Shown here in pieces: positions 46,404 to 52,969 of a DNA stretch of 64,000 nucleotides (position 1 is the stretch's first letter; the number at the start of each line of letters is the position of its first letter). The DNA comes from Microbacterium faecale. Its GTDB lineage: Bacteria; Actinomycetota; Actinomycetes; Actinomycetales; Microbacteriaceae. The stretch spans positions 1,808,166 through 1,872,165 of the forward strand of contig NZ_BMHO01000001.1 of the NCBI RefSeq assembly GCF_014640975.1, in the 5' to 3' direction. Below the pieces are notes generated by a model, which saw only the letters and a list, made by a program, of their open reading frames with translations, ran no database searches and was not told the DNA's origin. The position numbers were made by a program, and so were the translations under genes.

Positions 46404-46428
46404 AGATGACGCGAATGCACCGAAAACG
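46404..46428 (+). repeat. Left terminal inverted repeat
   Basis: 25 bases beginning AGATGACGCGAATGCACC. The exact reverse complement is at 51976-52000. A weaker match continues inward (TTATCT shared, one-base offset), giving about 40 related bases per end. The 119 bases between it and the tnpC stop hold no gene. Confidence 0.92.
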
Positions 46429-46547
46429 ACCCGTTATCTGGGGTCTGGTCAGACGTGGTCATGACGTCCAGCACGAGACTCAGCGGATCGGAAGTCTTCC
46501 TGGTGGACGCGGTTATCTTGAGCCGTCCATCGAGCGGCTCGGCCTCG

Positions 46548-46937
46548 TCACCGTGCCGTGGTCGATGCCCGTAGTTGCCCGAGGGTGTGTTCCAACTGTT
46601 TCCGGAGTCGCTGGTTCTCGGTGGTGAGGTCACGGACGCGAGCGTTGGCAACTTCGAGGCGGCGTCGTAAGGACGCATCGGTGGAACGTTGCGACGCGGG
46701 CAGCGGTGCGCCGCCGGCTCCTTGCTGGAGGTCGCGGCGTCGTCGGATCTCGGCGCAGATGTCGGGCTGGGTGTAGAGCCAGGAACGTGAGACTTGCGCT
46801 TTCTGCACGACGATCTGGAAGGTGACCGCACCGCCTTCGCGGTCGAGGTCACGAAGAGCCTGGGTGGCTTTGGCGCGCGTGGCCTCGTGACGCAGTTGGG
46901 CGGCGGCGATCAGGTGATGGCTGTTATCGGCATGCAT
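46548..46937 (-). CDS. tnpC: TnpC-like DUF6262 protein
   Basis: 129 aa, the size of Tn554 TnpC (about 125). The N-terminal half has a predicted HTH-like region (IVVQKAQVSRSWLYTQPDI). The C-terminal half is a heptad coiled coil (LRRRLEVANARVRDLTTENQ). ATG 46937 overlaps the tnpB stop (TGATG); the longer upstream frame is a shadow of tnpB. TnpC is thought to aid orientation or efficiency of transposition. Confidence 0.82.
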   Translation of the reverse strand: MHADNSHHLIAAAQLRHEATRAKATQALRDLDREGGAVTFQIVVQKAQVSRSWLYTQPDICAEIRRRRDLQQGAGGAPLPASQRSTDASLRRRLEVANARVRDLTTENQRLRKQLEHTLGQLRASTTAR

Positions 46938-48412
46938 CAGGTGCTTGCCTCGCCATCCTCGTCGTTCTCCAATGTGGTAATGATCTGGTCGAGGTTTCCC
47001 AGGACCTGCTGGTTCATCTCGATCAGCCGTTGCTGACCGCGGGCTTCGGCCGCGGTGATGATCTGCACAACCTGTTGACGATGCTGGCGGTGCTCGGGCA
47101 GGAACTCCGAGGTGGTGATGAACATCGGGCAGCTCAGGCACGCGTTCGCGTGCGGGCAGGACTTCTGGACTGGCAGCCCGCAGAAGCCGTTGGGCAGGGC
47201 CTGGGTCGCTCGCCCGACCCGCTGCTTGGCCCAGGCCGCCTCGGCCAACGGTCCGTCCGGGTCGAGGGTGACCGTCTCGCCCTTGATGTTGACCTTCTTC
47301 GCGGCTTCCCAGTGCCGGCGGATCGTGGTGTCACTGAGCCGGGCGTAGTGGGCGGTCATGGCGTGGGAGTCGTGGTCGAGAATCCGCCGAACCACTTCTT
47401 GGGGGACGTCGCGGTTGATCAGCCTGGTACCCAGGGTGTGCCGGAAGCTGTGCGGGACGACGCGAACGGGTTGGCCGTGCTCGTCACGGACGTCGCAGCG
47501 CTTGAGCCAGCGGTGAAGCGCCTTGCGGTAGGCGCCGTCACCGACCGATTCCTGACCATCGTCGTTGTGCGTGACGCGCGGGAACAGCACCGGCGCACCG
47601 TCCGGCCATCGCTCTTGGAGGCGGCGGCGCTGCGCGGTGATGGCCTCGGTGAGCTCGGCGTCGATGGGCACCAGGGCCTCGCGTTTCATCTTGTGGTTGA
47701 GGTAGCGCAGGTAGGGCGCTCCCTCACCGTCGTGGACGATGCAGTCGGTCGGCAGGCGGACGGTGTCGGTGATGCGCAGCCCACACCCCATCAAAATCTG
47801 CGTGATCAGCTCGTAGCTGGGGTTGTTCCACTTGGCGAGGTTGTCCGAGTTCTCCAGCTGGGCCATCACGGCTTCGCTCAGCGCGCGCGGTTGCCGGATG
47901 GCTTCCTTGGGGAAGTCCTCGCTGAAGAACATCACCGCCGACGGCAGGGAGTCATCCCAGCCGTGCTGCCGGATGGTGGTGAAGAACAGATTCAGCTGGC
48001 CGATCAGCATGCGGTGTTTCACGGTGCCCGCGAACCGGGCATGCAGGTGAGCGAGGTAGCGCTCCAACACCTCCCGGTTTAGGTCTGCCATCCCCTGGAC
48101 AGAAGGCGCCACGTCCTCGAGGAACTGCCCGAAGTGCATGATCGCCCGTGTGCCGGAGGAGACGCTGATCACACCGAGGCCCGTGGCCAGGCGCCACCGC
48201 GCCCAGCGTTTGGCCAAGACCTTAAGCCAGGACTGCCCGATGTCCTCGAAGATGATCCGGGCCAGCCGCCTGTCCTTGACGCCGAGCTCACGCAGCCGCC
48301 AGACGTCCTTGCCGTACTCGGCGTCCCATCTGCTGGTCTGGCGGGGTGTCCGGCGCCGCTCGCTCGCCGTCGCTGATGGCTGTTCAGGCACCAGCGGACT
48401 CGGTGTGCTCAC
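46937..48412 (-). CDS. tnpB: Tyrosine recombinase, Tn554 TnpB-like
   Basis: 491-aa integrase. The catalytic residues are visible: Arg in GCGLRITDTVRLP, H-x-x-R in PHSFRHTLGTRL and Tyr in AHYARLSD. After the catalytic domain there is a Cys cluster (CGLPVQKSCPHANACLSCPM) that could bind a metal, as in Tn554-type TnpB. GTG 48412 overlaps the tnpA stop (GTGA); the open frame continues upstream to 48691 as a shadow of tnpA. Confidence 0.88.
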   Translation of the reverse strand: MSTPSPLVPEQPSATASERRRTPRQTSRWDAEYGKDVWRLRELGVKDRRLARIIFEDIGQSWLKVLAKRWARWRLATGLGVISVSSGTRAIMHFGQFLEDVAPSVQGMADLNREVLERYLAHLHARFAGTVKHRMLIGQLNLFFTTIRQHGWDDSLPSAVMFFSEDFPKEAIRQPRALSEAVMAQLENSDNLAKWNNPSYELITQILMGCGLRITDTVRLPTDCIVHDGEGAPYLRYLNHKMKREALVPIDAELTEAITAQRRRLQERWPDGAPVLFPRVTHNDDGQESVGDGAYRKALHRWLKRCDVRDEHGQPVRVVPHSFRHTLGTRLINRDVPQEVVRRILDHDSHAMTAHYARLSDTTIRRHWEAAKKVNIKGETVTLDPDGPLAEAAWAKQRVGRATQALPNGFCGLPVQKSCPHANACLSCPMFITTSEFLPEHRQHRQQVVQIITAAEARGQQRLIEMNQQVLGNLDQIITTLENDEDGEAST

Positions 48413-49545
48413 AGTCGGACCTCTCGGCCGGTGAACCAGCCCGCTTCCTCCAGCGCCTGGCGGACGTCCTCGGCACTCAGATGCCCGTAGACGGCGGCAG
48501 TAGTGGTGATGTCGGCGTGGCCAAGGAGCTTGGAGACCACCTCGATCGGCACACCGTCCCGCAGCATCCGGGTCGCGGCGGTATGGCGGTACCAGTGCGG
48601 ATCGAAGTCGATCCCGGTACGGCGGCGCAGCCGCTTGACCAGGTCGTAGACGGCCGTGTAGGTCAGCGGGTGGCCGTGGGGTCGGCCCCACAGGGTCACG
48701 AAGACGTAGTCGGAGTCCAGGTCGCCGTACTCCAGGTGCAGGTAGTCGGCATAGAGCCGGACCAACTCTGCGCTGACCGGTACCGTCCGCGGGTTGCGTG
48801 ACTTGGAGCGTGCCCCGTTGTCGTTGACCCGGCGCTGGACCGTGATCTGGGACTCGGCCGCGGCGATGTCCTCATGTCGCAGGCCCAGCGCCTCCCCGAT
48901 CCGCATCCCGGTGTCAAAGAGCACGGCGAACAGGAACCGGTCCCGCAGATGGGCACAGGCATCGAGGATCGTCTGCACCTCGACGGCGGTGAGCACGCGC
49001 GGGAGCTTGCGCTGCGCGTTCAGCACGATGGCCCGCCGCGGCTGCGGTTTGCCCTTGCTGATGTGGTGCAAGAACGGCTTCCATCCCGAACTGCGGCCTC
49101 CGGCCGGCTGCCACGTCCTGAGCAGCTCCCCGAGGTCGATGCCGTGGCGGGCGGCGTGCTGGTAGAACGCGCTGAGAGCGGAGAGCTTGTGGTTGACCGT
49201 CACCTCGGTGCAGTGGTGCTGCACCGACGACAGGATCAGGACCGTCCCGTCGCGCAATTCTGGCGGACGGCGCAGCCAGGCGACGAACTCGGCGACGTTC
49301 TCCAATCGCACCTCACGCCAGTCCAAAGCCTGGCCGCTGAGGAACTCGAACCAGTCCTTCAAATCGTGGGCGTAGGCCTTGACCGTGTTCGGCGACCGCT
49401 CGATCTGCGTCAAGTACGCCAGATATCGCTCAATCGGAGCCACCGGGGCACCGTCACCACCGAGCACCGTCCACGACTCCACGGCATCGATCGGCGAGAG
49501 CACCCGCTGGACAAACAGGCCACTCATCGGCGCGACTGCACTCAT
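48409..49545 (-). CDS. tnpA: Tyrosine recombinase, Tn554 TnpA-like
   Basis: 378-aa integrase with an N-terminal SAM-like DNA-binding domain (IERYLAYLTQIERSPNTVKA). The catalytic domain has Arg in DTGMRIGEALGL, H-x-x-R in HWYRHTAATRML and the nucleophilic Tyr in TTAAVYGHLS. ATG 49545 overlaps the stop of the efflux gene (TGATG), so cargo and recombinases form one translational unit. It acts with TnpB in strand exchange. Confidence 0.88.
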   Translation of the reverse strand: MSAVAPMSGLFVQRVLSPIDAVESWTVLGGDGAPVAPIERYLAYLTQIERSPNTVKAYAHDLKDWFEFLSGQALDWREVRLENVAEFVAWLRRPPELRDGTVLILSSVQHHCTEVTVNHKLSALSAFYQHAARHGIDLGELLRTWQPAGGRSSGWKPFLHHISKGKPQPRRAIVLNAQRKLPRVLTAVEVQTILDACAHLRDRFLFAVLFDTGMRIGEALGLRHEDIAAAESQITVQRRVNDNGARSKSRNPRTVPVSAELVRLYADYLHLEYGDLDSDYVFVTLWGRPHGHPLTYTAVYDLVKRLRRRTGIDFDPHWYRHTAATRMLRDGVPIEVVSKLLGHADITTTAAVYGHLSAEDVRQALEEAGWFTGREVRL

Positions 49546-51104
49546 CAATTCTCGGTATCTGCGGTCGGGTGCGTGGACTGGGCTGAGGCTCTTCCCCGAT
49601 GGAGCAATATCGGGCACACGATGGCGGTCGCGACGAGGACGAGTCCTCCAGTGACTGTGGCGGCACCGAGCCCGTCGACGAAGGCGTGACGGGCAAGGTT
49701 AGCGAGGTGAGTCGCGGCTTCAGTCGGAAGTTGCTCGGCAACACTGATGGCTGCGCCGAGGCTCGAACTGATGACCTCAGTGGCATCCGGAGGGAGGTCG
49801 TCGGGTACTCCGTCGAGGACTCGTGAACGGTACAGGGCGGTACCGATTGAGCCCAGAACAGCAATGCCCAGCGCGGCGCCCAGTTCTGCGGCGGTCTCCG
49901 ACAGGGCGGACGCAGCACCCGAGCGGTTCGGCGGGGCGGAGCCGACCACGACGTCGGTGGCGAGCGTCATCATCGGGGCGATACCTGCACCGATGAAGGC
50001 GGATGAGACGATGGCGACGATCAAGCCATCGTCGACCGGGACCCGGCTGAGCACTAGCATTCCCCCGGCAGCCACGGCCGCGCCTGCCCCGAAGACAAGG
50101 GGGTAGCCGAAGCGGGGCACGAGCACGGAGGCGAGAACAGACATTCCACCGACGGCGACCATGATCGGCAGCATCGCAAGGGCGGCGAGCAACGGCGACA
50201 GTCCTGCAACGAGCTGCAGATACTGTGCGCTATAGAGCATCACGCCGACAAGTGAGAACATCGCCAGACCCGCCCCCAGGACGGCACCACTGAAACGAGG
50301 GTTGGCAAACAGGCGGACATCGACCAAAGGCGACTGGAGACGCCGCTGCCGGATGAGGAACACGGTGCCAGCCAGTACGCCGACGACCAGTCCGACCACG
50401 GCGGCAGGGGTGAGTGCGAGTTCCTCGGCGGCGGTCTTGATCGCCCAGACGACCGGGATGATCGCGGCGAAGGATAGTAGGACGCTGAGCACGTCCAGTC
50501 GCGCCGATGTCGGGCTCCGGTACTCGGGAACGAGGCGGGGTGCCAGTACCAACAGGAGCACGATGACGGGCACGTTGATGAGGAACACCGATCCCCACCA
50601 GAAGGCTTCGAGTAGCAGACCGCCGATGATCGGACCCAGCGCGATGCCCCCGGACAGGCTCGCGGTCCAGATGCCGATCGCTCGGGTGCGCTCGGCCGGG
50701 TCGGTGAACATGTTGCGTATCAGTGAGAGCGTCGAGGGCATGAGTGTGGCCCCGCCGATTCCCATCAGGGCACGTGCGGCGATGAGAACCTCCGAGGTCG
50801 GAGCGAACGCCGCCAGCGTCGAGGCCATGCCGAACACCGCGGCACCGATCAGGAGCAGCCGACGCCGGCCGATCCGGTCGCCGATGTTGCCCATGACGAT
50901 GAGCAGGCCGGCCAGCAGGAACCCATAGGCGTCGAGAATCCACAGCGTCTGGCTCGGGCTCGGGGTCAGCTCATGCGTGATGGTCGGAATCGCGATGTGC
51001 AGGATTGTGATGTCCATCGAGGTCAATATCACGGGCAGCGTCAGCACGGCGAGTCCGAGCCACCGCGACCGTGGACCGAGTGAACGAGAAGTTTGGGACG
51101 ACAC
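49545..51104 (-). CDS. MFS drug-efflux transporter (DHA2 family), transposon cargo
   Basis: 519-aa, ~14-helix proton-coupled exporter. Motif A is [20 protein letters not shown], the antiporter motif region is SGGIALGPIIGGLLLEAFWW, and the D-E-type membrane residues of QacA/SmvA/LfrA-like pumps start with TSMDITILHIAIP. GTG 51104 is preceded by AAGGAGG and faces a perfect operator for the divergent TetR protein. It probably gives resistance to a cationic drug or antibiotic; the substrate cannot be read. Confidence 0.88.
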   Translation of the reverse strand: MSSQTSRSLGPRSRWLGLAVLTLPVILTSMDITILHIAIPTITHELTPSPSQTLWILDAYGFLLAGLLIVMGNIGDRIGRRRLLLIGAAVFGMASTLAAFAPTSEVLIAARALMGIGGATLMPSTLSLIRNMFTDPAERTRAIGIWTASLSGGIALGPIIGGLLLEAFWWGSVFLINVPVIVLLLVLAPRLVPEYRSPTSARLDVLSVLLSFAAIIPVVWAIKTAAEELALTPAAVVGLVVGVLAGTVFLIRQRRLQSPLVDVRLFANPRFSGAVLGAGLAMFSLVGVMLYSAQYLQLVAGLSPLLAALAMLPIMVAVGGMSVLASVLVPRFGYPLVFGAGAAVAAGGMLVLSRVPVDDGLIVAIVSSAFIGAGIAPMMTLATDVVVGSAPPNRSGAASALSETAAELGAALGIAVLGSIGTALYRSRVLDGVPDDLPPDATEVISSSLGAAISVAEQLPTEAATHLANLARHAFVDGLGAATVTGGLVLVATAIVCPILLHRGRASAQSTHPTADTEN

Positions 51105-51115
51105 GATTCCTCCTT

Positions 51116-51156
51116 GGGTACAACGTACGCAAACCACCGTAGCGTACGTTGTACCC
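51116..51156. promoter_or_regulatory. TetR operator between efflux pump and regulator
   Basis: GGGTACAACGTACGC and its exact reverse complement, with an 11-base spacer, occupy the 83-base divergent region. The left arm begins 12 bases upstream of the pump start. Both promoters probably overlap it, giving mutual repression. Confidence 0.85.
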
Positions 51157-51187
51157 ATCGCGATACACTGGGTTCCGGAGGTGTCGC

Positions 51188-51865
51188 TTGAGTCCACGAG
51201 TCGGGCCGTCTGGTCCCTTATCCCGCGACCGGATCGTCGCGTCGGCGATCGAGCTTGCTGACGAGGACGGTTTGGACGCGGTGACGATGCGGCGCGTTGC
51301 CGAACGGCTCGGTGCCGGAGCGATGTCGCTGTACCGGCACGTGGCCGACAAGGACGAGCTCATCGGTGCCATGGTCGAGCAGGTCACCGCCGAGTACTCC
51401 TACCCTGATGCAACCGGCTTGGGCTGGCGGGAATGCATGCACATACTTGCCCGGCAGGACTGGGCTTCGTTTCTCGCTCACCCGTGGCTGCTGACTGCCA
51501 ACGCCACCGTCACCCCACCCTTCGGCACCGCCTCGCTAGCCGCGATGGAGTGGGCACTGTCCGCCCTGGAGGAATTGCACCTGATGCCGGACGAGGCCGC
51601 CCGTGCGATCATGACGATGAACAACTACGTCCAGGGCAGCGCACGCGTTGCCCTCGGAGACCGGCAAGCCGACGCGGGCGACGACCCGGGCCGTGCCTGG
51701 CAGCACCGACTCCACGATCTGGACCTGGGAGATTTCCCACACCTGAGCCGACTCATCGCGCATCGGCATCCCGCCGGCGAACGAGACTGGTTCACAAGCG
51801 GGCTGGATGTAATTCTCGACGGAGTCGAGGCACGCCAGAACCCACACCCGGTACAGCGGGGATAA
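51188..51865 (+). CDS. TetR-family repressor of the efflux pump
   Basis: 225-aa regulator with the HTH in DEDGLDAVTMRRVAERLGAG followed by MSLYRHVADKDEL. The C-terminal part (about residues 80-210) is a TetR_C-like ligand-binding domain rich in aromatic and charged residues. TTG 51188 is preferred: GGAGG lies six bases upstream. The ATG at 51149 would overlap the operator. It is expected to repress the divergent MFS gene until the drug binds. Confidence 0.85.
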   Translation: MSPRVGPSGPLSRDRIVASAIELADEDGLDAVTMRRVAERLGAGAMSLYRHVADKDELIGAMVEQVTAEYSYPDATGLGWRECMHILARQDWASFLAHPWLLTANATVTPPFGTASLAAMEWALSALEELHLMPDEAARAIMTMNNYVQGSARVALGDRQADAGDDPGRAWQHRLHDLDLGDFPHLSRLIAHRHPAGERDWFTSGLDVILDGVEARQNPHPVQRG

Positions 51866-51975
51866 ACAGGTCACGCGACCAAGCCGGCCCCAGGTCCTCC
51901 TTACCGTAGACACCGTCCACGACACAGAACTGAAGATCACAGCAAGCTTCTGGCCTCAGGACTCTAGATAAGCGA

Positions 51976-52000
51976 CGTTTTCGGTGCATTCGCGTCATCT
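51976..52000 (-). repeat. Right terminal inverted repeat
   Basis: Exact reverse complement of 46404-46428. Its outer edge touches the last base of the thiL stop codon (52001-52003). The ~110 bases from the TetR stop to this repeat carry no gene. Confidence 0.92.
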
Positions 52001-52969
52001 TCAGGGGGTCGGGGATGACCAGTCGCGATAGGGGTCCCAGCCGCCGTGGCCGCGGTACGGGGATCCGTCGACCGTGACCGGGGCGTCGGCGCGGGGGAGG
52101 ACGCGGCCGATCTCGCGGAAATCCGCCGGCACGGCCGCCGGCGGGAACGTCGCGAGCAGAGCGTGGTCCTCGCCGCCACGGAGGGCGAGCGACGGGTCGT
52201 CCCCGAGCGCGGACGCATGCAGATCGAGCGTCACGTTCGACGCGTCAGCGATGCGCGACGCGTCGAGCGCGAGGCCGTCCGAGACGTCCATCATCGCCGT
52301 GGCACCAGCGGCAGCGGCCACGGGACCGCTCGTCAGTGGGGGGCGGGGACGAAGGTGGCGCTCCACGGCGTGCCGGTCCGCGTCCCGCAGCTCGTCGAGC
52401 GCCGGAGGGGATCCGTCGTAGCGCTCGAACAGCATGTCGAGACCTCGCGCCGAGACGCCCATGTCGCCGGCGATCGCCACGACGTCGCCAGACCGCGCTC
52501 CGGAGCGCAGCACCGGTGGGCGCCCGTCGGTGTCGCCGAGTGCGGTCACCGCGATCGTGAGCACGGACGACTGCGTGAGGTCGCCGCCGACGACGGCGCA
52601 GCCCGGGGCGAGCGTATCGCACGCCTCGCGCAGTCCGTCGGCCATCGCCTCGATCTCACCGACCGGCGTCTCTCCGGGCACGGCGAGGGCGACCAACAGG
52701 CTCGTCGCGCGGGCACCCATCGCCGCGACGTCCGCGAGGTTGACCGCGGCGGCCTTCCAGCCGAGGTCGTATCCCGTGGACCATTCGCGCCGGAAGTCGG
52801 GGCCGTCGACGAGCGTGTCGGTCGTGGCGACGACGGATCCCGTCACCGCGAGCACCGCGGCGTCGTCACCCGGGCCGACCTCGGTCACCGTCGCCCGGCC
52901 GGTGCGCGCGAGGATGCGCCGCAGGATCTCCCCCTCGGACAGGTCGCGGACCATCTCGCGTTCGCTCAT
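52001..52969 (-). CDS. thiL: Thiamine-monophosphate kinase
   Basis: 322-aa PurM-like kinase making thiamine diphosphate from the monophosphate. Motifs are GPGDDAAVLAV, ATTDTLVDGPDF, NLADVAAMGARATSLLVAL and MMDVSDGLALDASRI. The frame and conserved motifs are intact to its stop, which lies immediately at the transposon right end; whether the natural last codons were altered cannot be decided here. rsmD is just upstream on the same strand. Confidence 0.93.
   Translation of the reverse strand: MSEREMVRDLSEGEILRRILARTGRATVTEVGPGDDAAVLAVTGSVVATTDTLVDGPDFRREWSTGYDLGWKAAAVNLADVAAMGARATSLLVALAVPGETPVGEIEAMADGLREACDTLAPGCAVVGGDLTQSSVLTIAVTALGDTDGRPPVLRSGARSGDVVAIAGDMGVSARGLDMLFERYDGSPPALDELRDADRHAVERHLRPRPPLTSGPVAAAAGATAMMDVSDGLALDASRIADASNVTLDLHASALGDDPSLALRGGEDHALLATFPPAAVPADFREIGRVLPRADAPVTVDGSPYRGHGGWDPYRDWSSPTP

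Follow-up and report, generated by a model that had tools for sequence, protein, structure and literature searches.

When a mobile element lies between exact inverted repeats, do the repeats belong to the element or to the DNA that received it? The question is raised by a three-gene transposon of Microbacterium faecale, found in a 64,000-nucleotide stretch of the genome (the window) in which positions 46404–46428 and 51976–52000 form exact 25-bp inverted repeats. A search of the whole window for the 25-mer at up to 3 mismatches gave two matches only, both being the arms themselves, and the 25-mer had no match in 100 shuffles of the window. An earlier note on this DNA had taken the repeats to be the ends of a Tn554-like transposon. 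Their coordinates and exactness hold, as does the presence between them of a tnpA-tnpB-tnpC-type trio and an efflux cassette, here an MFS transporter and a TetR regulator. The repeats lie outside the element however, whose own ends are at 46434 and 51971. It is almost certain that a Tn554-family transposon (46434–51971) has inserted beside thiL, into the loop of an intergenic palindrome that belongs to a REP-like repeat family specific to the host; the 25-bp inverted repeats would then be the separated arms of its target.

Genes, cargo and relatives of the element

The features of the locus, in order along the window, are these:

46404..46428, plus strand: left arm of the host palindrome (target, outside the transposon), its half-site family recurring in 20 further palindromes of this genome; both 25-bp arms of the window are AGATGACGCGAATGCACC arms
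46428..46433, plus strand: 6-bp coupling sequence GACCCG, tnpC side, its first base being the last base of the left arm
46434..46445, plus strand: true transposon end, tnpC side, TTATCTGGGGTC
46434..51971, no strand: transposon proper, 5,538 bp
46548..46937, minus strand: tnpC (DUF6262, PF19776), 129 aa, its ATG overlapping the tnpB stop
46937..48412, minus strand: tnpB, tyrosine recombinase (PF00589), 491 aa from a GTG overlapping the tnpA stop
48409..49617, minus strand: tnpA ORF, tyrosine recombinase (PF00589), 402 aa from the first GTG
49545..51197, minus strand: cargo, MFS transporter ORF
51149..51865, plus strand: cargo, TetR-family regulator ORF, divergent from the MFS ORF
51960..51971, plus strand: true transposon end, cargo/tnpA side, GACTCTAGATAA
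51972..51977, plus strand: 6-bp coupling sequence GCGACG, tnpA side, overlapping the first two bases of the right arm
51976..52000, plus strand: right arm of the host palindrome, directly adjoining the thiL stop codon

TnpA and TnpB both carry the Phage_integrase domain and TnpC the DUF6262 domain, and the three genes follow one another with successive overlaps of a few bases. GxR and HxxRH motifs were found in both TnpA and TnpB by pattern matching. The C-terminal tyrosine motif was recognised by pattern in TnpA, whilst the tyrosine of TnpB was missed by the pattern and was read from an alignment to the relative in L174, a Tn554-type element beside a piece of a JAB-domain (RadC-type) gene. 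TnpA, TnpB and TnpC are 40, 33 and 29% identical to their counterparts in L174. The true start of tnpA is probably later than the first GTG, because most relatives match from about residue 34. The coordinates of the MFS and TetR genes are the extents of the ORFs, in which the start codons are not fixed. The MFS ORF is DHA2/LfrA/QepA/SmvA-like, with all NCBIfam scores below their curated cut-offs. TnpA has one full-length match in its own genome, the window copy, along with three partial matches at 34–39% identity, one of which falls inside the window TnpB.

A contig scan for relatives of TnpA gave 66 loci. The complete trio is present in the same order in 11 of the 11 relatives tested, the TnpA of L135 and the TnpB of L033 being matched in two pieces. 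Besides the window's host, the sub-clade is seen in records named Brevibacterium, Brachybacterium, Rothia, Nesterenkonia and Kocuria. A wider search in one further family, chosen by guess, found the element in none of 221 genomes. The cargo between tnpA and the end varies across the copies. L030 carries TetR and MFS genes, identified by a domain scan, and L032 and L033 share its ORF layout; L035 carries a malate:quinone oxidoreductase, L028 a histidine phosphatase, the Kocuria plasmid an ABC transporter and two-component genes, L140 NmrA-like, ABC-2 and WYL proteins, and L142 an AHSA1 protein. The copy in L135, on a Kocuria rosea plasmid, is about 90% identical, and an erm gene lies just past its end motif. 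At L062 6117–6317 a more distant element adjoins a piece of an IS256/Mutator-type transposase gene (PF00872), and flank letters like those of L062 occur at several Mycobacterium loci.

Ends and coupling sequences

The element's own ends, at 46434 and 51971, are imperfect inverted repeats of each other over 12 bp, with the consensus TTATCTNGRGTC. Imperfect terminal repeats are common to all nine copies with two ends placed, 9–12 of the first 12 bases agreeing; these are the window copy and eight others, among them the one on the Kocuria plasmid and two from additional genomes, and they measure 4.8 to 8.4 kb. L140, L142 and most second ends were located by a search for TTATCT and so are not independent support for the end motif. 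The earlier note had stated that Tn554-family elements are not described as having terminal inverted repeats, whereas excerpts of PMC10214605 describe imperfect ones at the Tn554 termini.

Printed side by side, all eight of the closest loci have TTATCT at the same place. On the tnpC side, blastn matches to the window start at 46431–46432, inward of the 25-bp repeat, in four of these eight (L029, L030, L033 and L034), and 8–13 bp into the left arm in three (L028, L031 and L032, at 46416, 46416 and 46421); the match of L035 starts at 46504 only. The run into the left arm is probably due to similar A-rich target bases. On the cargo side some 65–70 bp are conserved up to AGATAA in L030, L032 and L033. 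In L034 (12096, minus strand) and L035 (12012, minus strand), TTATCTNGAGTCGTCCAT occurs again roughly 80 bp inward of the end on the tnpC side; this second motif may be an additional site for the recombinases or may mark an older, nested end. When the two flanks of each copy were compared (45 bp per flank, start within 14), exact inverted repeats between them reached at most 25 bp in the window and, in the other eight two-ended copies, 3 to 8 bp.

Six bases lie between TTATCT and the target arms. This coupling length was adopted from the published Tn554 rule, which the data fit, rather than derived independently. According to excerpts of PMC10214605, Tn554, when it transposes, takes 6 bp of the donor's flanking DNA along to its new position. 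Under this rule GCGACG, on the tnpA side, would be the target's own sequence and GACCCG, on the tnpC side, the footprint of an earlier site. GACCCG also stands at the tnpA-side junction of the L174 element, directly before TTATCC, which may be chance. L028 and L029 have the same coupling 6-mer (CGGTCG) at their two ends, and in the other seven of the nine copies the two 6-mers differ. Counted by eye, CGnnCG occurs in 12 of 18 coupling 6-mers, and AAA or TAA within the next four bases in 12 of 18 flanks. Since the two 6-mers of the window differ, its empty site is not fixed to the base.

Host palindromes and the choice of target

The host genome (3.12 Mb, 4 contigs) was searched whole, once with the full 25-mer and once with only the inner 21 bases. 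Both queries found related sites away from the element, and these read as palindromes without any element in them. The gapped pattern AATGCAYC-n-TGCATT matched 16 palindromes and a control pattern none; counted from AATG to CATT, every one of the 16 is 32 or 33 bp long. A half-site pattern allowing up to 2 mismatches gave 81 matches in the same genome versus 30 for its control; 41 of the 81 are exact, the two arms of the window among them, and pairing the half-site matches by eye added 4 further palindromes with variant arms. The genome thus holds at least 20 uninterrupted palindromes of this arm type (AATGCACC...GGTGCATT, 32–33 bp) plus the split one. They reach about 50 bp and have two types of outer arm, ACCTTCC and ACATGAC. 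The palindrome at C2:117546-117593 has in each of its arms an exact copy of ATGACGCGAATGCACC, the half-site of both window arms, and the window arms (14 and 13 bp, AATG to CATT) with a 6-bp spacer make 33 bp, a family length.

In being short, multi-copy and extragenic the palindromes look like REP-type repeats. Overlap with a GC3-predicted gene is absent at 14 of the 15 loci examined, being present in L026, and at 7 of the 15 the palindrome starts within about 60 bp 3' of the predicted stop of the left gene. Tandem palindromes or half-sites at 72-bp steps occur, for example, at G000:C1:1133798-1133917, 2423889-2424008, 2267586-2267705 and 768108-768553. Six palindromes folded as RNA gave -32 to -50.7 kcal/mol, with z-scores of -9.3 to -11.7, and no Rfam match was found in 12 palindrome loci. 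A narrower pattern, which recovers 12 of the host's own 16, had a match in 4 of 58 other genomes of the genus, with a true palindrome in 3, one per genome. The arm's inner 21-mer, sought with up to 2 mismatches in 299 genomes of the family (the host among them), was found in the host and once in one other genome. The palindrome family, which in its own genome includes the tandem 72-bp arrays, is rare in the remaining genomes of the genus.

The neighbouring thiL gene (window 52001–52969) is inverted, lying on the minus strand like rsmD, and the element is at its 3' side. Fifty-seven other genomes of the genus have a ThiL match, and the order DUF3515(-) thiL(+) was seen in all 29 of those examined, 28 of them with rsmD(-) after thiL. 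In L095, the genus genome with the best ThiL match, it is rsmD that is turned around. Single-gene inversions thus recur in the thiL cluster, since rsmD is inverted in L095 and thiL in the window. No uninterrupted palindrome was found in the thiL flanks printed from genomes of the genus, in which ThiL is at most 71% identical.

Could the 25-bp repeats nonetheless be true terminal inverted repeats, and the element-free palindromes miniature derivatives made of two fused ends? An exact 25-bp symmetry does flank the element, palindromes with arms of the same type are present in the genome, and the blastn matches of three of the eight close relatives extend into the left arm. This explanation is very improbable however, because homology begins inward of the repeat in four of those eight, because the loops of the palindromes are variable, with TTATCT in none of the 16 printed, and because tandem steps of 72 bp and positions near stop codons are features of REP repeats. 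The earlier note had itself named trio copies without the repeats, and repeats standing alone, as findings that would count against terminal inverted repeats. Both were made, since at least 20 further sites in the host genome carry repeats of this family but no element, and none of the eight other copies with both ends placed has an exact flanking inverted repeat above 8 bp. The arms are those of a split host palindrome, and a misleading signal is thereby corrected: exact inverted repeats that enclose a mobile element can belong to its target. The idea that the palindromes are fused-end remnants of the element is largely refuted by the copies of the element elsewhere.

The row of three recombination genes, taken with the inverted repeats, had also led to the proposal of an intermediate between Tn554 and RIT elements. 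This is more improbable still. TnpC is a DUF6262 protein rather than a third tyrosine recombinase, and each of the three proteins matches a Tn554-type partner, whereas RIT elements have three recombinases and 34-bp terminal repeats in the account excerpted from PMC10214605. Neither a third catalytic recombinase nor a RitA/B/C match was met in the close relatives, which were examined for the tnpA-tnpB-tnpC trio. The alternative proposal of an undescribed actinobacterial branch gives way to a Tn554-related actinobacterial class already defined in 2012 (PMC3414803, in the passages available). The likeness to Tn554 is borne out by the homology and common order of the three proteins, by the 6-bp coupling sequences and by the shared end core TTATC. 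Because of its own 12-bp ends, its 6-bp couplings and its protein homology to a Tn554-type element, the element, judged from sequence, belongs to the Tn554 family, in the class of actinobacterial transposons described in 2012, and is not a Tn554/RIT intermediate.

For a Tn554-family transposon inserted in a host palindrome, a route of insertion can be proposed. With the help of TnpC, the recombinases TnpA and TnpB would bring the ends together in a circular form, joined via the TTATCT/AGATAA core half-sites, and the circle would insert by strand exchange over the 6-bp spacer into target half-sites which often follow AAAA-CGnnCG-TTTT. The loop of the host palindrome, GAAAAC-n6-TTTTC, would present a core of this kind, symmetric and A-rich, within a genome rich in GC. 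The insertion itself is intergenic, beside thiL, and not at the att554 site of radC. Insertion at att554 in radC marks classic Tn554 and not the whole related class. With about 21 palindromes of 50 bp in 3.12 Mb, after-the-fact arithmetic puts the chance of a random hit at about 3 in 10,000.

It is unlikely, if far from negligible, that elements of this clade generally favour hairpins or palindromes as targets, the window insertion being one example. The window site is a perfect palindrome, short inverted matches join the flanks of L035 (8 bp) and L032 (7 bp), 11 of 20 positions agree in L028, and the A-rich half-sites, by the count made by eye above, stand on both sides of the targets. Against this, dyad symmetry in the other eight copies shows no excess over cross-paired flanks: the score over 8 bp is 4.25 versus 3.75 (sd 1.43), over 12 bp 5.88 versus 5.32, and over 20 bp 8.62 versus 8.12. 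There is little or no symmetry at L140 and L142, and the target dyad of L035, sought as a repeat in its host, had 0 matches at up to 3 mismatches. When flanks were joined in seven copies, an ORF was seen to span the insertion site in L032 and L033, which seemingly lie in genes; the flanks of L028, at 49–50 bp, are too short to judge an interrupted gene. Pfam gave no match on the L040 flank or on the seemingly interrupted genes of L032 and L033 (L139 and L141). Since the other flanks lack excess symmetry, the L035 dyad is unrepeated and L032 and L033 seem to lie in genes, a preference for palindromes would be drawn from one insertion. The palindrome is not required by the element; a short core target matches what the loops of the host palindromes present. 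It can be suggested only tentatively that a Tn554-family tyrosine-recombinase transposon is able to take as its attachment site the loop of a REP-like hairpin which its host carries in many copies. If this is true, a single genome would offer it about 20 safe landing sites that spare genes.

Comparison with known systems

The yardstick for Tn554 homology was the Tn554-type element L174, on Exiguobacterium plasmid NZ_CP075898, and not Tn554 itself. Beyond the order and identity of the three proteins, the two elements share the tnpA-side end core TTATC and resistance-type cargo. By contrast, the window target is not a RadC-type gene, the cargo is placed between tnpA and the end instead of beyond tnpC, and TnpB has 491 aa in the window as against 632 aa in L174. 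The far end of the L174 element was looked for and not found.

The actinobacterial Tn554-related transposons of Van Houdt et al. (2012; PMC3414803) come from the same phylum and have two tyrosine recombinases with, in most cases, a TnpC-like third gene. Ends, couplings and targets do not appear in the passages of that paper available here; the present work adds them, as ends at base level and 6-bp coupling sequences, for one actinobacterial sub-clade with varied cargo. The two sources, as excerpted, disagree on hosts, since PMC10214605 lists only Staphylococcus and Enterococcus for the three-gene type and PMC3414803 has actinobacteria. The excerpts of PMC10214605 also describe strand-biased circularizing elements (SEs), which resemble the window element in their imperfect terminal repeats (13–19 bp), 6-bp footprint and two recombinases, but which have a fourth gene (Tfp) and are reported mainly from Gammaproteobacteria. 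The gene trio is a likeness to RIT elements as described there, whilst their third tyrosine recombinase and 34-bp terminal repeats were not met in the window.

Insertion sequences that target REP repeats (IS1397, ISKpn1, IS621 and ISPpu9/10; PMC1525189, in part) likewise place a mobile element in a host REP palindrome. The families named in the portion of that paper available are IS3, IS110, IS4, IS256 and IS5, in contrast to the tyrosine-recombinase transposon of the window. Among the literature matches listed, such targeting is reported for insertion sequences only, with no tyrosine-recombinase transposon in a REP repeat, most subscription papers being outside the coverage. It is mildly new for a transposon with tyrosine recombinases to lie in the loop of a REP-like repeat, and this hints that REP-like repeats may serve as landing sites for transposons of this kind as well as for insertion sequences.
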